Shown: positions 30,435 through 38,184 of the stretch, one piece after another | How positions within the stretch are numbered: position 1 is the first letter of the stretch | Layout of the letters: each line of letters starts with the position of its first letter | Origin: Syntrophomonas sp. DTU019 | GTDB lineage: Bacteria; Bacillota; Syntrophomonadia; Syntrophomonadales; Syntrophomonadaceae | DNA: 64,000 nt | Direction of reading: 5' to 3' | NCBI GenBank assembly: GCA_913757435.1 | Contig: CAJYDM010000002.1 | Span: forward strand, 124,001 to 188,000 | Notes under the pieces: generated by a model | Database searches by the model: none | What the model was told of the DNA's origin: nothing | The model's input: only the letters and a program-made list of their open reading frames with translations | Program-made: the position numbers and the translations under genes

Positions 30435-31718
30435 CTAAAGTCTTCTACCGTAAAGCTCTGCAACTCTAAGCGCCTGTGCCAGGATCTTTTTCCTTAGGCC
30501 AGGGGGCTCCAAAACCTCGACCTGATTCCCCCATTGCATGATCCAGCTCTGCATCTCAATGAGGCCGCAAACCTCAAATTGCACTATCACCGAACCGTCT
30601 GGCAAATCCTCTATGATCTCCTGACTGGGGTGGTAGCACAGTTTTTTCACCCTGGAAGCTACCTGTGCAGAGAAGCGCAATCGCACCATTTGCACCGGGT
30701 CATCACAGAAAACTCCCCAGCTGGCACCGATGTGTTGGCTTAATGAGAAATCCTGGGGATAGTCGAATTTATCAGCCTCGCGGCTCACCAGATGCTGAAT
30801 CTGATCCACCCGGAAGGTCCTGATCTCTGCATTCTTGCCCTGCCGGGCGATTACGTACCACACATTGCGCTTGCACACCAGGCCCAGTGGTTGCAGAAGG
30901 CGCGAGGAGGTCTTGCCGGAGTTGTTCACATAATCTACCTTGACATGATAAGATTCGCTTACCGCCCGAACTAACTGGCCCAGGATGTGTCCGAATTGCT
31001 CAGGCTGGCTAAGGGTATCACCCAATATATAGATACGCTCTTTGAGCAATTGGGCGCGCTCTGGCATGCCTTTGAAGAAGCCCTTCTCCATGTTGACCCG
31101 AACCGAGCTGACCGCATCATCCAACAGGGTGTTGCGGTGCATCAGGGTGGAGACGTAGAGCACTGCGGCGCTCTCCAGGCTCAGCTTGGGGAGGTATTCT
31201 TGTTTGAGACGATAGGTCTTGTTATTGCTGCCGGATGAGGGGCGGTCAATGGCGATGCCGAACGATTCCAGGCGGGCCAGGTCCCTTTGCAGGGAACGCT
31301 TTATTGAGGCCTCTTTAGGAAGCTCCGAAGTGTATTGCTCCAACAACTCGCGATAGTGTTTAAACAGAGATTCAAAGCGTATGCCCCCATCGCGGCTGGC
31401 CTGCTCCAGGTCATGGTATAGGTAGATGAGCCGCTCCGCCAAAGGCGGCCGTCCCTCAGCTCCATCATCGCCATCCAGATACTCCTCGATCTCGCAGATG
31501 GTGAGATAATGCCCGTCTTTTACAACCGTGAAAGTGCCATCCTGACAGAGGTCCTTGTCTCCGGCCAGACCGAGCAGCAAACGGTACAGGCTGGCTTGGG
31601 AACGGATTTTGACCGCCGCCATCACCGCTTCTGGCGTAGACCCGGGGTGATTGCTGATGAAATCGCGTGCCTCGGTGGCCTTCTGGGCCAGGGCGGTGGT
31701 ACGGGTTGAAACCGCCAT
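30435..31718 (-). CDS. WYL-domain transcriptional regulator
   Basis: A 427-residue regulator. The N-terminal quarter has helical, HTH-like character (TPEAVMAAVKIRSQASLYRLL), the middle contains an HTH with SIKRSLQRDLARLESFGIAI, and the WYL domain spans about residues 235-320 (VKVDYVNNSGK, RLLQPLGLVCKRNVWYVIA, RTFRVDQIQHLV), followed by a WCX-type C-terminal part. WYL proteins sense ligands or nucleic acid and often control DNA repair or defence genes; the addBA neighbourhood is suggestive only. Confidence 0.88.
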   Translation of the reverse strand: MAVSTRTTALAQKATEARDFISNHPGSTPEAVMAAVKIRSQASLYRLLLGLAGDKDLCQDGTFTVVKDGHYLTICEIEEYLDGDDGAEGRPPLAERLIYLYHDLEQASRDGGIRFESLFKHYRELLEQYTSELPKEASIKRSLQRDLARLESFGIAIDRPSSGSNNKTYRLKQEYLPKLSLESAAVLYVSTLMHRNTLLDDAVSSVRVNMEKGFFKGMPERAQLLKERIYILGDTLSQPEQFGHILGQLVRAVSESYHVKVDYVNNSGKTSSRLLQPLGLVCKRNVWYVIARQGKNAEIRTFRVDQIQHLVSREADKFDYPQDFSLSQHIGASWGVFCDDPVQMVRLRFSAQVASRVKKLCYHPSQEIIEDLPDGSVIVQFEVCGLIEMQSWIMQWGNQVEVLEPPGLRKKILAQALRVAELYGRRL

Positions 31719-32154: not shown

Positions 32155-33603
32155 CTAGGCGGTATCAATTTCAAACCAGAACGCTACTCCTCCGGGGCGG
32201 TTCTCCATTCCGTAGAGGTTTTGGTCGAGTTCCATAATGGCCCGGACCACCGCCAGGCCCAGGCCGGTTCCGCCGTAGGCGCGGGTACGGGCCTTATCCA
32301 CTTTATAGAAGCTGGTAAAAAGTCTGGGCAAAGCCTCTGCAGGAATTTGCGAACCGGAGTTGAAGACGGTGACGCGCAGTTTGCTTCCCCGGGGCTCTAC
32401 CTCGATAGAGAGCTGTTTGGCTTCATCGATATGGTTCAGGGCATTGTTAATATAGTTCATCAGGACCTGCTCAGTGCGGGTTATGTCTGCATTGACCGGC
32501 AGCGAGGGGCTCCACTGCAGAACCGGGTCGATGCCCTTTTCAGACAGAAGAGGCTCGAATTTGTTTATCACCAACTGCAGCAGCCCGGCCAGGTCGAATT
32601 CCTCCTTATCCAAGGTAAACCCTCCCGACTCCAGTTGCGACAGTTCCAGCAGTTCCCGCACCAGTTTATCCATTTTGCTGGATTCGTCCATTATTACATC
32701 GCAGTAGAAATTCTTACTGTTCTCATCTTCGGCCACGTTTAGCTTTAAGCCTTCGGCATAGCCCTGTATCAAGGACAAGGGGGTCTTGAGTTCATGCGAC
32801 ACATTGGAGATGAATTCACGGCGCATCTCATCGATCTGCCGTTCTCTCTCCACTTCCTCCTGAAGGCGGGCATTGGCGGCCTGCAATTCCGAGATGGAAC
32901 GGTGTAATTGCTCGGACAGGGAGTTTAGGCTATTGCTCAGCTGCCCCAGTTCATCCTGGCTGTTGACCTCCACCTTTTGACTGAAGTCCAGCCGAGTCAT
33001 ATTCTGGGCGATGCGGTTCATCTCCAGTATGGGCTGGGTGAAGCGTGCTGCAAACAGGAAGGCGACCATACCCCCTAATAGCAAAGTGATCACTCCGGTG
33101 AACAGGAAGAAGCGGTTAGCCACCGCAGCATTGGCCTGTATGGCCGCCAAAGGAGTGCTCAGGACCAGTATATCGTGGTTGTTCAACAGATAGACCAGAT
33201 TCATAAATTCGGCGTTGAGTCGCAGGTCGTGGGTGATGAGGTTAAAGCTGCCGTACCTTTGCAGTTCAACATAACGCTCGGCGATCATGGCCTGACTGAG
33301 GTCACTGCGCTGGGAGAGGTTGCGCCTGGGGAGGGAGAGGTATTTAGCCTGCAGGTGGCTGTCCAGGATGATGACGTTTAAGCTGGCGGTGCTCTCGGCG
33401 CCTTCCAGGGCCAGGAGGATGTCCTCGGGAGCGCCGCGGTATTGCTTGTCGATTATCTCGGCGGTGGAATCCAAGAGGTCCATCTTTTGATTCAAATAGT
33501 AGCTTTCCAGATAGTTGTTGTTTAAGAATATGGAGAAGGCCACGAAGAAAAGAATCACCACTGCCAGGCCGATGAATAATTTGGAACGGATGGACTTGAT
33601 CAT
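32155..33603 (-). CDS. Sensor histidine kinase
   Basis: A 482-residue membrane kinase. Helix 1 is near residues 8-28, an extracytoplasmic sensor follows to about 168, helix 2 is TGVITLLLGGMVAFLFAA, then HAMP, HisKA with the phospho-accepting His in FISNVSHELKTPLSLIQGYA, and the ATP-binding domain with NYINNALNHI and GGTGLGLAVVRAIM. Its start overlaps the response regulator stop by 4 bases, so the two are translated together. The sensed signal is unknown; context suggests envelope state. Confidence 0.93.
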   Translation of the reverse strand: MIKSIRSKLFIGLAVVILFFVAFSIFLNNNYLESYYLNQKMDLLDSTAEIIDKQYRGAPEDILLALEGAESTASLNVIILDSHLQAKYLSLPRRNLSQRSDLSQAMIAERYVELQRYGSFNLITHDLRLNAEFMNLVYLLNNHDILVLSTPLAAIQANAAVANRFFLFTGVITLLLGGMVAFLFAARFTQPILEMNRIAQNMTRLDFSQKVEVNSQDELGQLSNSLNSLSEQLHRSISELQAANARLQEEVERERQIDEMRREFISNVSHELKTPLSLIQGYAEGLKLNVAEDENSKNFYCDVIMDESSKMDKLVRELLELSQLESGGFTLDKEEFDLAGLLQLVINKFEPLLSEKGIDPVLQWSPSLPVNADITRTEQVLMNYINNALNHIDEAKQLSIEVEPRGSKLRVTVFNSGSQIPAEALPRLFTSFYKVDKARTRAYGGTGLGLAVVRAIMELDQNLYGMENRPGGVAFWFEIDTA

Positions 33604-34271
33604 GCCAAAACCTCGAAGCGGTAGCCGAGGCCGCGCACGGTTTGAATATAATCGCCTTTGTCAGCCAGTTTGAGGCGCAGTTTCTTGATGTGAGTATCCA
33701 CGGTGCGCACATCACCGAAGAAATTGTAATCCCACACCGCGTTCAGAATTTGGTCTCGGCTTAAGGCTAGGCCCTGATTATTGGCCAGATACAGCAGCAG
33801 TTCATATTCTTTAGGGCTCAAATGGACGCGTTCCCCGTCTACCCTGACCAATCTGGCACTCTCATCGATTTCCAGGCCGTTTAGGGAATGTACGCTGCGG
33901 GACAACTGCCCGCTGCGCCGCAGCAGGGCTTGCACCCGGGCCATCAACACCTGGGGGCTGAATGGCTTGGTTATGTACTCATCTGCGCCCAGCTCGAAGC
34001 CGAACAGCTCATCCGACTCCTGGCCGCGGGCGGTGAGCATTATCACCGGCAGAGAAGAATTGCGGCGGATCTCCCGGCACACCGTCCAGCCATCGCATTC
34101 CGGCATCATCACGTCCAGGATGGCCAGGGCCAGATCATGGTGTTCATTGAAAACCTCCAGGGCCTCTCTGCCGTCGGCTGCTTCAATGGGTGCGAAACCC
34201 TCGCGGCGCAAAAAATCGCCCACCAGGCGGCGGATGCGGGATTCGTCATCTGCGATGAGGATTTTTTTCAT
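33600..34271 (-). CDS. OmpR-family response regulator
   Basis: A 223-residue two-domain regulator. Receiver: DDESRIRRLV, phosphorylated Asp in LAILDVMMPECDGW, Thr in VIMLTARGQESDE and Lys in YITKPFSPQVL. C-terminal winged helix: HLSPKEYELLLYLANNQGLA and VRTVDTHIKKLRLKL, ending in VRGLGYRFE. Such regulators bind tandem direct repeats, and matching boxes lie at 34584-34601 and 34697-34714. Confidence 0.95.
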   Translation of the reverse strand: MKKILIADDESRIRRLVGDFLRREGFAPIEAADGREALEVFNEHHDLALAILDVMMPECDGWTVCREIRRNSSLPVIMLTARGQESDELFGFELGADEYITKPFSPQVLMARVQALLRRSGQLSRSVHSLNGLEIDESARLVRVDGERVHLSPKEYELLLYLANNQGLALSRDQILNAVWDYNFFGDVRTVDTHIKKLRLKLADKGDYIQTVRGLGYRFEVLA

Positions 34272-34376
34272 GTAATATTCCCTTCTGCTGTAGACAATTC
34301 TATTAAATCTTGAATACTTCTTAAAACCACTAACAATACTGAGGCCAACGGCCTGTTTGTCAGTTCTTTTTATAAT

Positions 34377-34390
34377 TAATGATAATCATT
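34377..34390. promoter_or_regulatory. Fur-box-like palindrome
   Basis: TAATGATAATCATT matches the core of the classical Fur box (GATAATGATAATCATTATC) over 14 contiguous bases. It lies in the roughly 290-base leader of the response regulator gene and overlaps a weak minus-strand promoter-like pair (TTGGCA, then ATTATA after 17 bases). Confidence 0.35.
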
Positions 34391-34567
34391 CAATGCCAAT
34401 CCAAGCCCAATTCCATTGCAAAAATTTTCCTTATGAAAATCTGCCCCCCTTAGGATGAAGATTTCCATGATTCCTGGTGTATTTCTAAAAATATCAGGAA
34501 TAATCCAATGATCATCTAGGGCCCTATGAGTTTTTGCAGTGGTATCAAACCTTAATTTATATCCAAT

Positions 34568-34601
34568 ATTCTAGTCCGGTCTTGTGAACATTCCGTGAAC
34601 A
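34568..34601 (-). promoter_or_regulatory. Response-regulator box and promoter of the two-component operon
   Basis: On the minus strand TGTTCAC (34595-34601), four bases, TGTTCAC (34584-34590), ten bases, then TAGAAT (34568-34573). Two 7-mers at 11-base spacing placed 10 bases before a -10 is the layout of PhoB/OmpR-type activated promoters. Confidence 0.7.
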
Positions 34602-34696
34602 CATATCTCTTTCCTTTTTATAGCCTATCTCCGCCCAAATATCAAAATTCCTCATGTAGTTAACGAAACTCATACCTGCCAAATAATTTCACTCGG

Positions 34697-34730
34697 TGTT
34701 CACCTTATGTTCACTTTGCTTGGCTATACT
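34697..34730 (+). promoter_or_regulatory. Response-regulator box and promoter of the LTxxQ/DUF2680-like gene
   Basis: TGTTCAC (34697-34703), four bases, TGTTCAC (34708-34714), ten bases, TATACT (34725-34730); no good -35 is present. Same architecture as the minus-strand site, in mirror image. Confidence 0.72.
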
Positions 34731-36756: not shown

Positions 36757-38184
36757 TCAGTAAACTTGCACTTCTTCTTGTACCAGACGGAATTCTCCGT
36801 TGGGCATCAGGGTCAGGTATTGAATGTGCTGCGGGGACAAGAATTGAATACCCCGGGTCTGCGTGGTATAGAGAAGGTTGTAATCCTGGCCTTCATCGCC
36901 ATCGAAAACCACGAACTGCCGCTCCCCGGTCTGGGCGGTGTAAACCAGATGCTGCGAATCTGGGCTGAAGGCCAAACTATCACCCACCACTGCATCATAG
37001 GAAACACCCTCTACCCCGTCTCGGACCACAAAGGCCTGCCCTTCATGATGCACTGCATATGCCCAGTGAAGTCCGTCAGGGCTGAATACCAGACCTCCTT
37101 CTAGAAATGTATTAAAGGGCGGGCCGACGGCGCCATCTATGACTGCCCGCCAGTGCTTATTTTCTCTAACTATATATGCCAGTCGATTGCCTTGCGGGCT
37201 GAACAAGAGGGTGCCCCGACCGATTCCGTCAAACAGCGGCCCCTCATCACCGTTGCACACCACCATCACTTGATTGTTCTTCATGGCGGCGTAGGCCAAA
37301 AGGCTGCTATCAGGACTGTAGACCAGGCTGTCACCACCCACTGCGTCATAGTGCCTGCCCTCGATGCCATCGGCTACGACCAGCTGTTTGCTGTTCCTGG
37401 AGGTGGCAAATTTACCGTCTATGGTCACCGGTTGGCTGCCAATCAAGGCGGCGTAGGCCAGATGACGGCTGTCAGGGCTGAAAACGAGCGATTCCGCCCC
37501 TATTGCACTGTAAGGTTCACCTTCGTCCTGACCGCAAACCACCAGCCAGCGATAGTCCTTTCTGGCGGCATAGGCCAGACGCTGGCTGTCCGGGCTGTAT
37601 TTCAGGGATCCCACCGCTATACCCTGGTAAGGGGAATGCTCCTGGCCATCTTCCACTACCAACCAGGAGCCGTCTTTGCAGGCAGCATAAGCATGGTGCT
37701 GGCCATCCGGTGAAAATTGCAGGCTATCGCTCAGTATGCCTTTGTATTTCCTCCTGCTGCGGCCATCGATCACGGCCAACTGCTGACCTTCGCTCTGCAC
37801 CGCATAGGCCAGCCGCTTGCTGTCGGCAGTAAAAACCAGACTATCGGTAAGGATGCCCGCATAGCCTTTCTTGGCTTTCCCGTCCAGAACTACCATCTGC
37901 TGCCCGTTCCTGCTGCCCACGTAAGCCAGACGCTGGCTGTCCGGGCTGAAGACCAGACTGCCTTTAATGATCTCATCATACTCGGGTTGGGGGCGGCCAT
38001 CCCAGACCACCATCTGGGAGCGCTCCAGTTGGGCTATATAAGCTATATGAAGCAGATCCGGACTAATCACCAAAAAATCCTGTATCTTTTCAGCGCCCAC
38101 CGCTGACAGGGGATGATCTAGGCTGCATATTCGGGTTTCCTGAATACTTCTCACCGCGCAGGTTCTTTTAGCCAGAGCAATCAT
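36757..38184 (-). CDS. PD40/WD40-like beta-propeller protein
   Basis: A 475-residue protein built of about ten near-identical units of roughly 40 residues, each with LVFSPDSQRLAYV-type and VVxDGxxxxxYxGI-type strands (for example SLVFSPDSQRLAYVG, SLKYSPDSQRLAYAA, SLVYSPDSSLLAYAA). This is a TolB/PD40-like propeller. There is no signal peptide, so it is probably cytosolic. The close similarity of units implies recent internal duplication. Partner unknown. Start ATG 38184 behind GGAAAGGA. Confidence 0.87.
   Translation of the reverse strand: MIALAKRTCAVRSIQETRICSLDHPLSAVGAEKIQDFLVISPDLLHIAYIAQLERSQMVVWDGRPQPEYDEIIKGSLVFSPDSQRLAYVGSRNGQQMVVLDGKAKKGYAGILTDSLVFTADSKRLAYAVQSEGQQLAVIDGRSRRKYKGILSDSLQFSPDGQHHAYAACKDGSWLVVEDGQEHSPYQGIAVGSLKYSPDSQRLAYAARKDYRWLVVCGQDEGEPYSAIGAESLVFSPDSRHLAYAALIGSQPVTIDGKFATSRNSKQLVVADGIEGRHYDAVGGDSLVYSPDSSLLAYAAMKNNQVMVVCNGDEGPLFDGIGRGTLLFSPQGNRLAYIVRENKHWRAVIDGAVGPPFNTFLEGGLVFSPDGLHWAYAVHHEGQAFVVRDGVEGVSYDAVVGDSLAFSPDSQHLVYTAQTGERQFVVFDGDEGQDYNLLYTTQTRGIQFLSPQHIQYLTLMPNGEFRLVQEEVQVY

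Follow-up and report, generated by a model that had tools for sequence, protein, structure and literature searches.

A predicted autoregulated envelope-stress two-component system with 11-bp operator arrays in Syntrophomonas

In the 64,000-nucleotide stretch of Syntrophomonas DNA analysed here (the window), an operon encoding a sensor histidine kinase and a response regulator lies divergent to a gene for an exported protein (Table 1). The regulator comprises a receiver and a winged helix. Its best NCBIfam score is to PhoB (208 against an equivalog cut-off of 296.2), it reaches 146.4 bits against the CpxR cut-off of 341, staying below every equivalog cut-off shown, and its best match in the PDB is RegX3. 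Among solved and modelled structures, the closest relative of the predicted fold of the kinase's extracytoplasmic PAS-like domain is WalK. A signal peptide was recognized by inspection in the exported protein, which also has helical repeats; its structural model is all-helical, with a pLDDT of 72 (mostly 75–96 over residues 61–240). A fold search gave no clear PDB match and no match to Spy or CpxP, and a profile search of the PDB gave weak, unrelated matches only. A preliminary interpretation made from the letters alone (the sequence-only reading) had called this gene DUF2680/LTxxQ. The DUF2680 assignment (PF10925) stands as a weak match of 34.9 bits against a cut-off of 25, which is a sum of partial repeats with no stretch reaching 0.001 alone, and the three LTxxQ motifs are real, a number reached in 3 of 2,000 shuffles; but the LTXXQ (CpxP/Spy) Pfam family was not among the families listed for the protein, nor among those listed for nine homologs at E 0.1. 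No Rfam family was found in the 30–40-kb part of the window. Nearby, a gene for a WYL/WCX-domain regulator (30435–31718) adjoins the kinase gene and has a similar-looking counterpart in G007 (L231, 10373–11659), and a 475-residue protein of repeated β-propeller-like units (36757–38184) has a very similar gene near the operon in G007.

Table 1. Genes and promoter elements of the locus, in window coordinates.
Feature	Position	Strand	Description
Sensor histidine kinase, 482 aa	32155..33603	minus	TM, extracytoplasmic PAS-like domain, TM, HAMP, HisKA, HATPase (Pfam)
Response regulator, PhoB/OmpR family, 223 aa	33600..34271	minus	Pfam Response_reg and Trans_reg_C; predicted activator
-10 element TAGAAT	34573-34568	minus	10 bp past the last box; no -35; from sequence
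Two 7-bp boxes, TGTTCAC-N4-TGTTCAC	34584..34601 (34601-34595, 34590-34584)	minus	Predicted operator for the regulator, ahead of the two-component operon
Upstream third box ATTTCAC	34686..34692	plus	Weaker, in shared 11-bp phase; 34686-34703 pair has 2 mismatches
Two boxes, TGTTCAC-N4-TGTTCAC	34697..34714 (34697-34703, 34708-34714)	plus	Upstream of the exported-protein gene; from sequence, conserved
-10 element TATACT	34725-34730	plus	10 bp past the last box; no -35
All-helical exported protein with repeats, 274 aa	34782..35606	plus	Weak DUF2680, three LTxxQ motifs; predicted target, CpxP/Spy analogue

The two genes are preceded by mirror-image promoters, which the sequence-only reading had described and which are present letter for letter on both strands: TGTTCAC-ggaa-TGTTCAC-aagaccggac-TAGAAT on the minus strand (34601–34568) and TGTTCAC-ctta-TGTTCAC-tttgcttggc-TATACT on the plus strand (34697–34730). 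As that reading had also stated, neither -10 has a recognizable sigma-70 -35 element at normal spacing. PHO-type operators consist of two 11-nt units that are bound head to tail, each unit having seven conserved bases and four loose ones (PMC4415409), and the Pho-type operator overlaps the -35 (PMC3348028); the 7+4 direct repeats found here over the -35 position share this geometry. Allowing up to two mismatches, the box pair matches three times in the window against 0.34 expected, a count that no shuffle reached. The 3.2-Mb genome contains just three exact pairs (0.024 expected), and with the -10 element added and up to three mismatches allowed, the two window promoters are the only matches in the genome (control, 1). 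Across 54 genomes of the family, the exact pair was found 11 times and the reversed control pattern once. Some matches were set aside: the one-mismatch pairs L004 and L005 lie in genes or at gene starts and not in promoter position, and an exact pair in G004 (L059) is intragenic and was put down to chance.

The leader of the regulator operon has features of its own. About 296 nt separate the -10 from the regulator ATG at 34271 (leader, 34272–34567), whereas the leader is 54–66 nt long in two close relatives (L135 and L013); roughly 240 nt thus appear to have been inserted here or lost in L135 and L013. This extra stretch contains an imperfect hairpin (34467–34504). Between the regulator -10 and the ATG there is also a perfect Fur-box-like core, AATGATAATCATT (34378–34390), with no other exact copy in the window and none in the loci analysed from other genomes.

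The sequence-only reading had proposed a genome search with TGTTCAC-N4-TGTTCAC, and this search returned a third site, missed earlier. The pair lies on the minus strand at G000:C4:268832-268849, about 100 bp upstream of a gene for a DegP/HtrA-type protease of 369 residues with the trypsin–PDZ composition of the Do/HtrA type. The promoter reads TGTTCAC-catt-TGTTCAC-aaaa-CCCTCAA-aact-TGTTCAA-N10-TATCAT; that is, four units in 11-bp phase and, again, ten bases before the -10. Four genes in the genome encode trypsin-type proteins. The one-mismatch pair L005 overlaps the start of another of these genes, but on the opposite strand. When in-register pairs were defined as those at a distance of 10, 21 or 32 from the -10, the best HtrA copy per genome carried one in 14 of 22 cases and second copies in 0 of 9, against 0.11 in shuffles and at most 5 at other offsets; the other 8 of the 22 best copies are without an array under the thresholds used.

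We then looked at orthologous loci, at which the sequence-only reading had placed its refuting test, a lack of the boxes; its proposal withstood this in-silico check. Searches with the kinase against bacterial and archaeal genomes and within the family retrieved relatives at 33–83% identity, and the same register recurs at the regulator and DUF2680-type promoters of many of them. Among 58 regions upstream of regulator orthologs, 17 carry a TTCAC/T pair with a gap of 6 (11-bp phase) and TAnnnT at 10, against 6 in the next best cell of gap and distance and 0.07 in shuffles; with one more mismatch, the count rises to 31 of 58 against 0.71 in shuffled sequences, with the next best cells at 18 and 17. 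Because the genomes are related, these counts are not independent. About half of the 58 promoters lack an array under the thresholds used, in some cases because the regulator gene is internal to an operon. Regulator-promoter arrays were found in Syntrophomonadaceae-like, Thermincola-like and Lachnospiraceae genomes, with TTTTCAC boxes at the Lachnospiraceae orthologs of the pair. Examples of ortholog promoters are TGTTCACcgaaTGTTCAC-N10-TATAAT in Syntrophomonas sp. DTU019, TGTTCACaaaaTGTTCAC-N10-TAAAAT in L016 and TTTTCACagctTTTTCAT-N10-TATAAT in L038. Clostridium orthologs (L015–L018) have another box, TTGTGAC-N4-TTGTAAC or similar, in unchanged register, and the diverged TTGTGAC/TTGTAAC operators of L015, L017 and L018 could show how specificity changed.

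DUF2680-type genes are preceded by three-box arrays and N10 in the same genus (L013, G006 and G007) and also in G022 (L136), in which the gene is divergent as in the window, G053 (L063) and G024; arrays of similar boxes precede such a gene in L009, L010, L012 and L027. Arrays consist of two, three or four 11-bp units, with the unit nearest the promoter 10 bp from the -10. The small canonical DUF2680 proteins of the order (L154–L166) showed no strict array in the stretch covered, so the link to the regulon does not extend to the entire DUF2680 family.

The genes that surround the pair in relatives have a common theme. In L232, HtrA, regulator, kinase and a DUF2680-like gene follow one another on the same strand. 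The order in L009 is DUF2680, regulator, kinase, a PpiC/SurA-type (PpiC/PrsA-type) foldase, an HlyD-type adaptor (MacA) and an ABC ATPase (MacB); in L016 it is regulator, kinase, an HlyD-type adaptor (MacA) with its own box pair, an ABC ATPase and a permease (MacB). Each of these neighbours works on the envelope or on exported proteins. Arrays also occur elsewhere. A three-box array with N10 to TACAAT precedes a VTC-domain gene (L231, 17693–17704; G007:C12:47661-47703), near which a 631-residue protein without a named family is encoded, and a three-box array with N10 lies upstream of a gene for a DUF4405 membrane protein (L062; G048:C98:21748-21792).

The three exact pairs in the genome all lie upstream of genes that share one functional theme, and the HtrA-type protease at the third site suggests what the regulon is for. 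We therefore propose that the pair at 32155–34271 is probably an autoregulated secretion- or envelope-stress system that targets itself, the DUF2680-like exported helical protein and HtrA. The PAS-like extracytoplasmic domain of the kinase would sense misfolded or mislocalized exported protein. The phosphorylated regulator would then occupy the boxes in a head-to-tail arrangement like that of PhoB; each target has two to four 7-bp boxes with the core TTCAC, which recur at 11-bp intervals and so lie on the same side of the helix. The bound regulator would take the place of the -35 and recruit RNA polymerase through sigma. The predicted targets in this genome are the system's own operon, the divergent gene for the exported helical protein and the HtrA-type membrane-anchored protease (G000:C4:268 kb). 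HtrA would clear misfolded or mislocalized exported protein, and the exported protein may act as a chaperone, a feedback damper or both, as CpxP does for CpxA. The earlier proposal, in which the regulator switches on both its own operon and the divergent gene, is supported by the conserved promoter sequences, with binding and activation as its predicted steps.

Other explanations fit parts of these data. The system could serve the envelope and respond mainly to a different signal, such as a metal, an antibiotic or redox state, with HtrA a secondary target. The MacAB neighbours in relatives, the arrays before the VTC and DUF4405 genes and the sensor, whose generic PAS-like fold is nearest to WalK, would accord with this; however, the recurrent targets are HtrA and the exported helical protein, and a PpiC foldase also adjoins the pair, and we consider this reading unlikely. 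A second possibility is that the boxes are operators of another OmpR-family regulator and the adjacent pair merely one of its targets. The genome does encode another regulator of that family, and binding by the adjacent one is our prediction from its position, but the arrays travel with its orthologs across genera and families and stand at its own promoter in differing gene arrangements, the usual mark of autoregulation, which makes a foreign regulator improbable.

A role in phosphate control (PhoBR/PnpRS, with the boxes as PHO boxes) is suggested by the 7+4 direct-repeat geometry, by the Streptomyces coelicolor PHO core GTTCACC, which is nearly identical to the box (PMC4415409), by the PhoB and RegX3 matches of the regulator and by the array before a gene of the VTC (polyphosphate polymerase) type in one relative. 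Yet the genome has a separate response regulator–histidine kinase–pstS–pstC–pstA–pstB–phoU cluster (C1:8220-14984), the kinase of which passes the PnpS cut-off (411.9 against 400) and around which 20 kb contain no such box pair. The window regulator falls under the PhoB cut-off (208 against 296), and the targets are HtrA and the exported protein, not phosphate genes. With a separate pst–phoU system that has its own pair and is without arrays, phosphate as the main function is largely rejected and seems very improbable. Chance repetition in AT-rich intergenic DNA, for which one could cite the shortness of the motifs and the two-mismatch matches in the genome (L072–L077), mostly intragenic and near control level (9 against 3), can be dismissed on the excess of exact pairs and the register conserved across families, and the early judgement that chance was very unlikely holds.

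An envelope-stress role for the pair would have wider consequences. It offers a testable regulon and an operator code in which arrays of variable length keep a fixed distance to the -10, and the array would allow the regulon to be read in any genome with the pair. The two-component system recurs in Syntrophomonadaceae, Thermincola-like bacteria, Lachnospiraceae and other Clostridia, and DUF2680, an almost unstudied exported family, would become linked to the quality control of proteins beyond the membrane. More tentatively, DUF2680-type exported proteins might be the counterpart of CpxP/Spy in Clostridia-related bacteria, that is, stress-induced chaperones that also restrain the adjacent kinase and that arose from another protein family within a conserved HtrA regulon; we regard this as possible but rather doubtful. 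A search of the available literature collection for Syntrophomonas with HtrA and two-component systems found nothing.

Several characterized systems invite comparison. HtrA is a known target of CssRS (PMC12826053) and of Cpx (PMC6737893), and in Streptomyces the CutRS two-component system controls HtrA proteases (PMC12802291). CutRS thus shares HtrA control with the system described here but has a different box (CutR, TAWATAAA). The PhoB/PhoP Pho-box promoters have the same 7+4 direct repeats, an operator over the -35 and a winged-helix regulator; unlike them, the present system coexists in its genome with a separate phosphate system and has targets that are not phosphate genes. The resemblance to CpxRA/CpxP of Escherichia coli is one of layout, with a divergent exported-protein gene beside the regulator–kinase operon (PMC6737893), and extends to DegP/HtrA in the regulon and to the LTxxQ motifs, two in CpxP (PMC5063474) and three here. 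However, the box is not of the CpxR GTAAA type (PMC5063474), the CpxR cut-off is far from reached, and the exported protein falls outside the LTXXQ Pfam family and is built of helical repeats. CssRS of Bacillus subtilis likewise pairs an OmpR-family regulator with a membrane histidine kinase, and in silico our pair, too, has predicted operators at htrA-type protease promoters and would be autoregulated, with conserved boxes at its own promoter. The CssR box, TTTTCACA (PMC6749698), is one base from TGTTCAC, and some relatives have TTTTCAC; unlike in CssRS, an exported DUF2680-type gene, often adjacent, is in the predicted regulon. By analogy, the system would work like CssRS (HtrA target, similar box and autoregulation) and be laid out like cpxP–cpxRA. 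On the sequence evidence, we place it as a probable variant of the two-component secretion- and envelope-stress systems.
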